Origin: Acidobacteria bacterium 28-9
GTDB taxonomy: Bacteria; Acidobacteriota; Blastocatellia; Pyrinomonadales; Pyrinomonadaceae
NCBI GenBank assembly: GCA_002050355.1
Contig: MWYY01000059.1
Span: forward strand, 27,756 to 91,755
Direction: 5' to 3'
DNA length: 64,000 bases
In this document: piece by piece, positions 621-7,057 of the stretch
Layout of the letters: each line of letters opens with the position of its first letter
Numbering within the stretch: the first letter of the stretch is position 1
Position numbers and translations under genes: made by a program
Notes under the pieces: model-generated
Told to the model about the DNA's origin: nothing
Seen by the model: the letters and a program-made list of their open reading frames with translations, nothing else
Database searches by the model: none

Positions 621-698
621 TGGGGCGGCTAGTGGGGCTCGAACCCACGACCTCTTGAACCACAATCAAGCGTTCTAACCAACTGAACTATAGCCGCC
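621..698 (-). tRNA. tRNA-His(GTG), CCA encoded
   Basis: Cloverleaf: GCGGCTA/TAGCCGC acceptor with extra G-1:C73, anticodon loop TTGTGGT, T-arm GGTTCGAGCCC, encoded CCA. Confidence 0.95.
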
Positions 699-1487: not shown

Positions 1488-1638
1488 TTCCGCAAGCGGA
1501 CTTGTAGGAATGAGATTTTTTATTTTATTCAACGGCGAAAGGAAAGTTTGAAATTTCTCGTAATTTTGAAAAACAACAATCGCAAACCCAAAATTGAAAT
1601 GCCCCCGGCACGACTCGAACGTGCGACCCACAGCTTAG

Positions 1639-2291
1639 CTTACCTCACTTGGTTTCCCAAGCCACATTTTCCGAAGAAAATATGTTGAAAGTCTGGACTA
1701 TATCTTAGACATTTCAGTCTGAGTGCGTATAGTCTCTACGGCGCCTCGGTGTAATCATCTGCAAAATTTATACCTTTTGCCTGATTGTTTTTAGGTGTTG
1801 CGATGCGAATCGTAAAACACTTGCCGACCGTTTCCGGCTTAAAGTAATAACACTTGTCGGTGTCAGGACAATAAACGCAAAAAACGTCAATCTGTGATTT
1901 ATCAATTTGCTTGCCGTGCGAACCGTTAATGTCAGCCCACCAACTTTTCATCGGTATTTGAACTGAACCATTTACGGCTCGGCGATATTTGACTTGAATT
2001 CTTATAAAACGATTGTCTTTATAAGCCGCCAAATCAAACGGCGCGTGTTCGGTTGCTGGAAACAAAACTACGAATCCTTTTTCAACCAAATCACAGTAAG
2101 CCTTCGCAACTCCCAAATCGCCTTTGTTTTTCGTGTGATGATTTATCATTTCGACTTATTTCAAAGGCTTTCACTAAGTTGCCTCGGTGTTGTCATAGGA
2201 ATTTTATAAAAAATTCCCTTAGATATTCACCGATATAGCACTCTCCACTGTGCGAGTTACTAATTCCCCGCACAGGCTCCTTTTTAGTTTG
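1639..2291 (-). ncRNA. Group I self-splicing intron (653 nt) after U34 of tRNA-Arg(UCU)
   Basis: P1 CUU/GAG with U.G at the splice site; P2 CTGTGCG/CGCACAG; P3 GAGTGC/GCACTC; P7 GACTATA/TATAGTC; conserved AAGATATAGTCC element; intron ends in G. Confidence 0.92.
1736..2149 (-). CDS. Intron-encoded homing endonuclease-like protein, PD-(D/E)XK type (I-Ssp6803I-like)
   Basis: 137-aa ORF wholly inside the intron; DLGVAKAYCDLVEKGFVVLFPATEHAPFDLAAYKDNRFIRIQVKYR fits a PD-(D/E)XK core with D...QxK. Confidence 0.75.
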   Translation of the reverse strand: MINHHTKNKGDLGVAKAYCDLVEKGFVVLFPATEHAPFDLAAYKDNRFIRIQVKYRRAVNGSVQIPMKSWWADINGSHGKQIDKSQIDVFCVYCPDTDKCYYFKPETVGKCFTIRIATPKNNQAKGINFADDYTEAP

Positions 2292-2476
2292 AAGGCTGTT
2301 GCTCTATCCAACTGAGCTACGGGAGCATAAAAAGAACGAATTGCAATCTTAACGACTGTGCAATTTTAAGTCAAATTAGACGGAAAATTAAGATAACAAT
2401 GTAAAATACTAAACCGGACAGCAACGGAAAAAGCCCGAATAATAAAATCCAAACCGTTTCTCGTTTGAATGTAAAT

Positions 2477-4444: not shown

Positions 4445-4759
4445 TTGGCTTTTTATGCCTTTTACCGGTTGCCTATATTCGACGTTGCTTTTACGATTAC
4501 TTCGACTTCACCCAGCGTTTTTCGCGCTTTCAATCGCAACCTTCAAAACTCGATCGTTGTGTAATTCTTCGCGCAGACTGCCTGCGAAATTAAAATTTTC
4601 AGCTTCTTTGACATAATAACAATATCTAAAATCTAAAATTGTTTAGATTTTGCCACGAATCGTGATGAAAGAGAAAGTCCCTTTGGCAGTTGTCTTTGCC
4701 GTTTGCACGCGATTATAATCGGCGGAGTATTTATAAAATATAAAGCCGAAGGAGAAACG

Positions 4760-7057
4760 ATGTCGAAAATCAAAATCGCTTTGATGTTTGTCTTAATTTT
4801 TGTCTGCCAGATTTGCGTAACACACGCGCAGCAAGGCGCGCCCGGCGAGCGGCGCGGAAAAGGCACAATCGTTTTGCGAGCCGCGCAGCTTATTGACGGA
4901 ACGGGCGCAGAGCCGATAAAAAACGGAGCGGTCGTCATAACAGACGATAAAATCGTCGCCGTCGGAAGACGTGAAAGCGTCCGAATTCCCGGCGGCGCAA
5001 GAGTTATTGACCTCGGCGATGCGACTCTGCTGCCTGGTTTTATTGACGCGCACACGCATATCATCGGGCGCGTTCTCGGCGACCCGGAAGGGCAAAATTC
5101 GATTGCGCGTGATTATGAATCATTCGGCGCAATTTTAGGTGTTGGCAATGCGGAGAAAACTCTCCTCAGCGGTTTTACCTCGATTCGAAACGTCGGCGCG
5201 TCGGATTTTCAGGATTTGGCGTTGCGAAAGGCGATAAACGAAGGCTGGATTACCGGACCGCGAATTTTAACTGCGGCGCATTCGCTGGGAATTACGGGCG
5301 GACATTGCGATGAAAACGGTTTTAGACCCGGACTTTTTGACGGCGATTATAAAACAGGAATTGCCAACGGCGTGGAAGAAGTGCGCGCCGCCGTGCGGTA
5401 CCAGGTAAAATACGGCGCGGATTTGATAAAAATCTGCGCGACCGGCGGCGTTCTCTCCGAAGGCGACGCGGTCGGCACGACGCAATACACTTTTGAAGAA
5501 GTAAAGGCAATCGTTGACGAAGCGGCGAAACTCGACGAACGCAAAGTCGCCGCGCACGCGCACGGCGCGGAAGGCATAAAAATCGCAACACGCGCCGGCG
5601 TCGCCTCAATCGAACATGGTTCTTTTCTCGACGAAGAAGGCGCGCGTCTGATGGCGGAAAAAGGAACTGTTCTCGTGCCGACTTTGATGGCTGGCGAAAC
5701 AGTCGAACGTCTTGCAAAAAGCGGCGTGCTGAAAGGTCTGCGCGCGGAAAAGGCGCTTGCTGCCGCTGGTGCGATGCGTAAAGGAATCAGATTTGCCGTC
5801 GCCAACCGCGTTACAATTGCGCTCGGCACGGATGCAGGTGTAATTCCGCACGGCACGAACGGACACGAATTTACGCTGATGGTCGAATGGGGCGGAATGC
5901 GCCCGCTCGATGCAATCGTCGCCGGTACAATGAATGCGGCGAGAATTCCCGGCGGCGCAAGAGTTATTGACCTCGGCGATGCGACTCTGCTGCCTGGTTT
6001 TATTGACGCGCACACGCATATCATCGGGCGCGTTCTCGGCGACCCGGAAGGGCAAAATTCGATTGCGCGTGATTATGAATCATTCGGCGCAATTTTAGGT
6101 GTTGGCAATGCGGAGAAAACTCTCCTCAGCGGTTTTACCTCGATTCGAAACGTCGGCGCGTCGGATTTTCAGGATTTGGCGTTGCGAAAGGCGATAAACG
6201 AAGGCTGGATTACCGGACCGCGAATTTTAACTGCGGCGCATTCGCTGGGAATTACGGGCGGACATTGCGATGAAAACGGTTTTAGACCCGGACTTTTTGA
6301 CGGCGATTATAAAACAGGAATTGCCAACGGCGTGGAAGAAGTGCGCGCCGCCGTGCGGTACCAGGTAAAATACGGCGCGGATTTGATAAAAATCTGCGCG
6401 ACCGGCGGCGTTCTCTCCGAAGGCGACGCGGTCGGCACGACGCAATACACTTTTGAAGAAGTAAAGGCAATCGTTGACGAAGCGGCGAAACTCGACGAAC
6501 GCAAAGTCGCCGCGCACGCGCACGGCGCGGAAGGCATAAAAATCGCAACACGCGCCGGCGTCGCCTCAATCGAACATGGTTCTTTTCTCGACGAAGAAGG
6601 CGCGCGTCTGATGGCGGAAAAAGGAACTGTTCTCGTGCCGACTTTAATGGCTGGCGAAACAGTCGAACGTCTTGCAAAAAGCGGCGTGCTGAAAGGTCTG
6701 CGCGCGGAAAAGGCGCTTGCTGCCGCTGGTGCGATGCGTAAAGGAATCAGATTTGCCGTCGCCAACCGCGTTACAATTGCGCTCGGCACGGATGCAGGTG
6801 TAATTCCGCACGGCACGAACGGACACGAATTTACGCTGATGGTCGAATGGGGCGGAATGCGCCCGCTCGATGCAATCGTCGCCGGTACAATGAATGCGGC
6901 GAAACTGCTCGGAACGGACAAAAACGTCGGTTCGCTCGCTGTTGGGAAATATGCCGACATCGTTGCCGTTCCAAATGACCCGCTAAAAGATATTCGCCGA
7001 ATGGAACGCACTGTTTTCGTGATGAAAAACGGCGTGGTTTATAAAGAAACCAGATAA
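4760..7057 (+). CDS. Secreted amidohydrolase (imidazolonepropionase-like) with a 320-aa internal duplication
   Basis: DATLLPGFIDAHTHIIGRV...GGHCDENG...AAHAHGAEGIKIATRAGVASIEHG...LGTDAGVIPHG; signal peptide; barrel segment present twice. Confidence 0.85.
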   Translation: MSKIKIALMFVLIFVCQICVTHAQQGAPGERRGKGTIVLRAAQLIDGTGAEPIKNGAVVITDDKIVAVGRRESVRIPGGARVIDLGDATLLPGFIDAHTHIIGRVLGDPEGQNSIARDYESFGAILGVGNAEKTLLSGFTSIRNVGASDFQDLALRKAINEGWITGPRILTAAHSLGITGGHCDENGFRPGLFDGDYKTGIANGVEEVRAAVRYQVKYGADLIKICATGGVLSEGDAVGTTQYTFEEVKAIVDEAAKLDERKVAAHAHGAEGIKIATRAGVASIEHGSFLDEEGARLMAEKGTVLVPTLMAGETVERLAKSGVLKGLRAEKALAAAGAMRKGIRFAVANRVTIALGTDAGVIPHGTNGHEFTLMVEWGGMRPLDAIVAGTMNAARIPGGARVIDLGDATLLPGFIDAHTHIIGRVLGDPEGQNSIARDYESFGAILGVGNAEKTLLSGFTSIRNVGASDFQDLALRKAINEGWITGPRILTAAHSLGITGGHCDENGFRPGLFDGDYKTGIANGVEEVRAAVRYQVKYGADLIKICATGGVLSEGDAVGTTQYTFEEVKAIVDEAAKLDERKVAAHAHGAEGIKIATRAGVASIEHGSFLDEEGARLMAEKGTVLVPTLMAGETVERLAKSGVLKGLRAEKALAAAGAMRKGIRFAVANRVTIALGTDAGVIPHGTNGHEFTLMVEWGGMRPLDAIVAGTMNAAKLLGTDKNVGSLAVGKYADIVAVPNDPLKDIRRMERTVFVMKNGVVYKETR
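4983..5942 (+). repeat. Tandem duplication unit, copy 1 (960 bp)
   Basis: Same as 5943-6902 apart from one substitution seen (ctttgatgg at ~5686 vs ctttaatgg at ~6646). Confidence 0.95.
5943..6902 (+). repeat. Tandem duplication unit, copy 2 (960 bp)
   Basis: Direct repeat of 4983-5942, in frame. Confidence 0.95.

Follow-up and report, generated by a model that had tools for sequence, protein, structure and literature searches.

The window analyzed here is a stretch of 64,000 nucleotides from Acidobacteria bacterium 28-9, and its minus strand carries a tRNA-Arg(UCU) gene whose anticodon is interrupted by a group I intron containing an open reading frame (ORF) for a predicted homing endonuclease (Table 1). 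The gene lies next to tRNA-His(GUG), and this tRNA-Arg(UCU)/tRNA-His synteny is kept in most relatives, with the intron present or absent. Elsewhere in the window, most of the domain of a 784-aa amidohydrolase-like ORF on the plus strand (4703-7057) is repeated in tandem as a long, near-exact internal duplication.

Table 1. Positions of the tRNA genes, the predicted intron helices and the endonuclease ORF in the window.
Feature	Position	Strand	Basis
tRNA-His(GUG)	621..697	-	neighbour of tRNA-Arg(UCU)
tRNA-Arg(UCU) 5' exon, nt 1 to U34	2292..2326	-	ARAGORN on spliced tRNA; intronless orthologues
P1 exon strand CUU (3' end of 5' exon)	2294-2292	-	
tRNA-Arg(UCU) 3' exon, C35 to nt 73	1600..1638	-	
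Group I intron, 653 nt, terminal G	1639..2291	-	boundaries set by intronless orthologues and the 46-intron alignment
Internal guide sequence GAG, pairing with exon CUU (U34.G wobble)	2277..2279	-	invariant in 46/46 introns
P2 hairpin (2275-2269 / 2254-2248)	2248..2275	-	covarying pairs
P3 5' strand (partner 1726-1721)	2238..2243	-	covariation in 5/6 pairs
P4 (2233-2228 / 2189-2184) around P5 (2218-2210 / 2205-2198)	2184..2233	-	P4: covariation alignment
P6 5' strand (partner 1742-1740, also endonuclease C-terminus codons)	2181..2183	-	covariation alignment
PD-(D/E)XK homing endonuclease ORF, 137 aa, ATG to UAG, in P6 loop	1736..2149	-	PF11645, Foldseek, catalytic columns
Endonuclease stop UAG, inside J6/7 of the core	1736..1738	-	common to PDDEXK and most LAGLIDADG ORFs
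P7 (1734-1728 / 1702-1696) around P3 3' strand, P8 and J8/7	1696..1734	-	compensatory changes in P7 and P8
P3 3' strand	1721..1726	-	covariation alignment
P8	1720-1717 / 1710-1707	-	compensatory changes
P9 region (outer 1692-1688 / 1646-1642), two inner hairpins	1642..1692	-	outer pairs covary, inner weaker; hairpins by eye

The interrupted gene and its ribozyme core

ARAGORN made no call on the unspliced DNA of the interrupted gene. When the exons were joined (2326-2292 and 1638-1600), the resulting 74-nt sequence was called as tRNA-Arg(tct), and the insertion point lies between U34 and C35. In relatives, 13 uninterrupted orthologues read CTT/CTAA at this point (slash at the insertion site), and a one-base ambiguity of the junction was removed because the first intron base is T, not C, in some sister introns. 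An earlier note on this DNA had proposed that the joined exons give a clean tRNA-Arg(UCU) and that the intron sits after U34, the position used in cyanobacterial tRNA-Leu(UAA); both proposals agree with these results, and the intronless sister genes that it suggested looking for are the 13 orthologues.

The same note had held that a second intact tRNA-Arg(UCU) gene would mark the present copy as dead. A pattern search for such a gene matched only places that were not tRNAs, and in the full tRNA census used instead, none was found among the 41 other tRNA genes of the 86.6%-complete assembly. In the longer ORFs of the window, AGA accounts for 111 of 13,541 codons. Because no other tRNA-Arg(UCU) occurs among the 41 tRNA genes and AGA codons are in use, the host probably cannot do without splicing, with the reservation that a second gene could sit in a gap, since the genome is 86.6% complete.

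We built a core alignment of 46 related introns, excluding the ORF and taking the structure from the window copy. Standard pairs occupied 96.9% of helix cells, and 306 compensatory cells were found in 22 pairs, compared with 80.6% pairing and an average of 89 compensatory cells in shuffled-partner controls and 35-44% pairing in slid-partner controls. The pseudoknotted core of P3, P7 and P8 holds across the alignment. The U34.G wobble of P1 at the 5' splice site was present in all 46 introns, the listed introns end in G, and P10 comprises at most 2 bp. The pairing and the compensatory changes thus uphold the earlier assignment to group I, which had been based on P1, P2, P3 and P7. At the alternative insertion point U36/A37 (L029, L064 and L070), the guide is GGA for exon UCU, whereas it is GAG for CUU at 34/35, so that guide and insertion site change together.

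Recognition by the Rfam model Intron_gpI (RF00028), which had been put forward as a check, was only partial. The window copy scored 11.7 bits in a looser search, a low value because the ORF interrupts the ribozyme, while two ORF-less sister introns reached 39.5 bits (E 3e-7) and 31.4 bits, significant values that nevertheless fall short of the 50-bit gathering score. At that score no intron was matched in the window or in the ORF-less sisters, and a scan of the genome itself with RF00028 also gave no match. Based on side-by-side alignment and the core tree described below, the intron appears to be of the small bacterial tRNA type and IC3-like.

The endonuclease and the states of its site among relatives

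The ORF fills the P6 loop, and its last codons form the 3' strand of P6; in most intron copies its end at the core reads TTCCG TAG AGACTA. The encoded protein of 137 aa has a PF11645 match (E 8e-39), and a profile of its close homologues matches I-Ssp6803I (2OST; E 4e-4). In a Foldseek search with the AlphaFold model (pLDDT 88), I-Ssp6803I was also the best PDB match (TM 0.74, E 5e-10), in line with the earlier proposal of a PD-(D/E)XK enzyme related to it. Among 82 homologues, the active-site residues of the D...QxK pattern are conserved (D39 in 82, Q52 in 80 and K54 in 81). Position 14 aligns to E11 of I-Ssp6803I, which we take to be the helix glutamate of that enzyme and perhaps a family-defining feature. 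The window protein has V14, and V, A, L, I or T occupies the position in 81 of the 82 homologues; glutamate occurs only in the phage copy L039. The dN/dS of about 0.08 against close copies indicates that the endonuclease is under purifying selection.

The states of the site were sorted in 60 relatives, in which the gene usually adjoins tRNA-His. Four states were observed: an empty site (e.g., G001, G002, G031 and G021), an intron without an ORF (G003, G006, G009, G023 and G017), an intron with a PD-(D/E)XK ORF (G004, G005, G019, G027, G035, G045 and G049), and an intron with a LAGLIDADG ORF at the identical position and with the same UAG end (G014, G015, G032, G048 and G412). PF00961 (LAGLIDADG_1) was above the cut-off in L019, L021, L022 and L024, with the LAGLIDADG motif DLAWLAGIIDGEG. 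The LAGLIDADG endonuclease is unrelated to the PD-(D/E)XK endonuclease and occupies the same place in the intron. Mapping the endonuclease content onto a core tree of 17 acidobacterial ribozymes requires at least 7 changes.

Divergence from two intron-containing relatives, G004 and G027, was compared with that of the adjacent cmk gene. Identity with them is 89-91% over the tRNA and intron and 73-76% on the cmk side. The endonuclease dS between the window genome and these relatives was 0.30 and 0.42, respectively, against 0.83 and 1.36 for cmk. An endonuclease dS about 3-fold below that of its neighbour points to recent horizontal homing, and because both the endonuclease dS and the intron divergence are lower than those of cmk, the pattern would be hard to explain other than by transfer after the species split. 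Alternatively, the intron and its endonuclease may be old in Acidobacteriota and inherited vertically with many losses, as might be suggested by an endonuclease tree that largely tracks phyla and by the retained tRNA-Arg/tRNA-His synteny. However, G001 and G002, which belong to the genus of the window genome, lack the intron, while G027, from another genus, has a copy that is 89-90% identical. Together with the low endonuclease dS and the scattering of endonuclease content over the ribozyme tree, this makes a purely vertical history unlikely.

Distribution of the endonuclease in bacteria and phages

Using protein sequence alone, we scanned 85,488 species genomes, collected the 80 closest homologues and sorted the DNA around each. 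All 80 trace to tRNA-Arg(UCU): 42 are intronic, 36 are free-standing beside the gene, and 2 are decayed copies. Introns at U34/C35 house 40 of the intronic copies and introns at U36/A37 the other 2. Among the free-standing copies, 8 closely precede an intact tRNA-Arg(UCU) and 22 closely follow it (20 from cyanobacteria, one from a Woesebacterium, and L053, which lies on a contig also catalogued as viral); 2 lie beside it on the opposite strand, and 4, all from Bacillaceae, lie downstream of a gene that retains an ORF-less intron. The hosts span about 11 phyla: Acidobacteriota, Actinomycetota, Myxococcota, Pseudomonadota, Bacillota, Bacteroidota, Ignavibacteriota, Chloroflexota, Rhodothermota, Cyanobacteriota and Woesebacteria (from record titles). 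The 80 loci include many close relatives, such as the 20 cyanobacteria, and do not represent 80 independent events. Even so, linkage by chance is untenable because there is only one such tRNA gene per several megabases.

The association extends to phages. In Synechococcus phage Sf-FR1 (55% identity) and Acinetobacter phage Herod (38% identity), the endonuclease gene lies directly 3' of tRNA-Arg(tct). In IMG/VR, 34 of 41 further viral contigs carry the gene at tRNA-Arg(UCU), with 22 copies downstream, 11 upstream and 1 in an intron. Most of the upstream viral ORFs overlap the 5' end of the tRNA, whose own U8-A9-G10 serves as their stop codon. The intronic case comes from L242, a contig of 83.7 kb on which Erf, dNMP-kinase and HNH genes are present and the one terminase model tried found no match; its phage status is based on the IMG/VR assignment and on the Erf and dNMP-kinase genes. 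According to a 2014 review, phage group I introns all lie in protein-coding genes despite the many phage tRNAs (PMC3984707), and the tRNA intron of L242 would be an exception to this statement if the contig is truly phage.

More distant members of the family were also observed. Distant phage PF11645 genes (L165, L166, L167, L171, L172, L253, L254 and L262) adjoin tRNAs for Ile, Asn, Asp, Ser and Arg(acg). Subfamilies with different tRNA targets are only suggested by this, because phage tRNA arrays are dense. In G038, a PDDEXK_5 gene (L177, E 1e-27) lies some 30 nt away from a tRNA-Ala(GGC) on the opposite strand and may encode a related enzyme with a different tRNA target. We rejected the view that all PF11645 proteins are linked to tRNAs, since two acidobacterial genomes, G138 and G308 (L178-L203), each contain at least 13 diverged, scattered PDDEXK_5 genes, a separate expansion of the family. 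Some of these copies share flanking similarity, and only one fetched locus is near a tRNA.

The cyanobacterial free-standing copies (L100, L102-L104 and L106-L121), mostly from Nostocales, follow an intact tRNA-Arg(UCU) at a near-constant distance of about 68 nt, start with TTG and usually have a C-terminal extension; they are perhaps domesticated. Where a free-standing copy adjoins an intact target, it would need some way of avoiding self-cutting, none of which is apparent in the sequence. Mutated, resistant tRNAs beside them were considered and dropped, as the anticodon arms in Nostocales and phages look standard by eye; in some Myxococcota, the arms at free-standing copies do differ, again by eye.

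These arrangements bear on whether the nuclease is a homing enzyme at all. It could instead serve a host or phage function, such as defence, protection of the tRNA locus or recombination, with the intronic copies hitch-hiking. The 20 cyanobacterial genomes, with their regular spacing, long C-terminal extension and intact tRNA-Arg(UCU), would be compatible with such a role, as would the PF11645 genes away from tRNAs in the two distant acidobacterial genomes. However, among solved structures the closest is that of a homing endonuclease, presence is patchy, synonymous divergence is low relative to the neighbouring gene, and an unrelated LAGLIDADG homing enzyme occupies the identical position. We therefore consider a non-homing role quite improbable and homing the preferred reading.

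Known systems, proposed mechanism and significance

This class of intron, this family of endonuclease and this host tRNA are all known already. I-Ssp6803I and the cyanobacterial tRNA-fMet intron likewise combine a PD-(D/E)XK enzyme with a small group I intron in an anticodon loop, and I-Ssp6803I is the closest solved structure, although identity is only about 17%. The tRNA-Arg lineage differs from that system in its tRNA and insertion site, in its lack of the aligned helix glutamate and in its intron-free occurrence. Free-standing phage enzymes such as SegB (PMC13096335) and F-CphI (PMC6083498) perform intronless homing and likewise have their gene parked beside the presumed target, but they belong to nuclease families other than PF11645. 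Unlike them, the tRNA-Arg lineage is both intronic and free-standing at a single tRNA, in bacteria and in phages.

Among other introns, those in cyanobacterial tRNA-Leu(UAA) are likewise inserted after U34 and match in the guide element GAGCC and in the arrangement of P7/J8-7 and P8, whereas the ORF was absent from the four copies examined and they fall on a separate branch of the core tree. This tree, of moderate weight given its roughly 100 columns and midpoint rooting, sets the tRNA-Arg introns apart from the cyanobacterial tRNA-Leu and tRNA-fMet introns with support of 95/97, and the introns of Arg(UCU) at 34/35, Arg(UCU) at 36/37 and Arg(CCU) form one group. The earlier note had seen in the locus the tRNA-Leu insertion site placed in a different tRNA with another type of endonuclease, and one could imagine the tRNA-Leu(UAA) intron jumping to tRNA-Arg(UCU) and acquiring a new endonuclease, given the common position and guide element. 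The tree does not bear this out, either in its separation of the Arg from the Leu and fMet introns or in the clustering of the three Arg types, and we regard such a jump as improbable.

Putative group I introns in tRNA-Arg(TCT) were reported earlier in Beggiatoa BOGUAY and Thiomargarita nelsonii (PMC4853749). The host tRNA is the same, and the gene is therefore not new as a host; the Thiomargarita intron has no room for a 137-aa ORF because the interrupted gene spans 324 nt, and that study assigned neither a structure nor an intron type. In mostly open-access literature, we found no report that links PF11645 PD-(D/E)XK enzymes to tRNA-Arg(UCU), nor one of an endonuclease swap at this site or of intron-free versions.

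Another host of group I introns is tRNA-Arg(CCU), as in Agrobacterium. A tRNA-Arg(CCU) intron was also observed in cyanobacteria (L214, at U36/G37), in the genome (G340) that contains the Calothrix elsteri locus L103. Like the window intron, it sits in a tRNA-Arg anticodon loop and groups with the Arg(UCU) introns; unlike it, it is inserted after U36 and lacks an endonuclease. In G340, tRNA-Leu(UAA) and tRNA-fMet are likewise interrupted by introns, and tRNA-Arg(UCU) is uninterrupted, with a free-standing endonuclease next to it.

That the window copy is a dead relic, with the tRNA unspliced and another gene supplying AGA decoding, is very improbable: the genome is a draft, relatives include broken ORFs (L012/L044, L013/L048 and L096) and two relic loci are known (L087 and L093), but the census found no other tRNA-Arg(UCU) while AGA codons are in use, the core pairs and the U.G wobble are conserved, and the window ORF is intact with a dN/dS of about 0.08.

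Taken together, the comparisons of sequence and predicted structure make it highly probable that the locus is a mobile IC3-like intron with an I-Ssp6803I-type homing endonuclease of a lineage specialized on tRNA-Arg(UCU), an enzyme that is swapped or lost while the ribozyme stays. The precursor tRNA would fold so that the guide GAG pairs with CUU of the 5' exon; as suggested by the conserved anatomy, guanosine would then attack after U34, and joining of the exons would yield a functional AGA-reading tRNA. The endonuclease would cleave tRNA-Arg(UCU) alleles that lack the intron, within the near-palindromic anticodon arm, and the intron and the endonuclease gene would be copied into the cut allele during repair. 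The lineage also exists intron-free, directly upstream or downstream of tRNA-Arg(UCU) in bacteria and phages, where the free-standing form may serve intronless homing. In the intron, the PD-(D/E)XK enzyme would at times be replaced by the unrelated LAGLIDADG enzyme, or lost, and the ribozyme would remain. With less confidence, we favor the broader view that a single endonuclease lineage, intronic and free-standing, has specialized on tRNA-Arg(UCU) across about 11 phyla and many phages, and that phages would act as a reservoir for the repeated gain, swap and loss of endonucleases by a fixed intron chassis.

Genomes with such genes may wrongly seem to lack an AGA-reading tRNA, because tRNA finders and the Rfam default cut-off miss them. 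Homing is usually studied intron by intron. Here, a single orthologous gene in sequenced bacteria is found empty, with a bare intron, or with either of two unrelated endonucleases in the same position; it also shows two adjacent insertion points, each with the guide to match, and intron-free versions of the endonuclease. Because all of these states occur at one gene, the order of the mobility events, namely endonuclease invasion, swap and loss, becomes directly testable.
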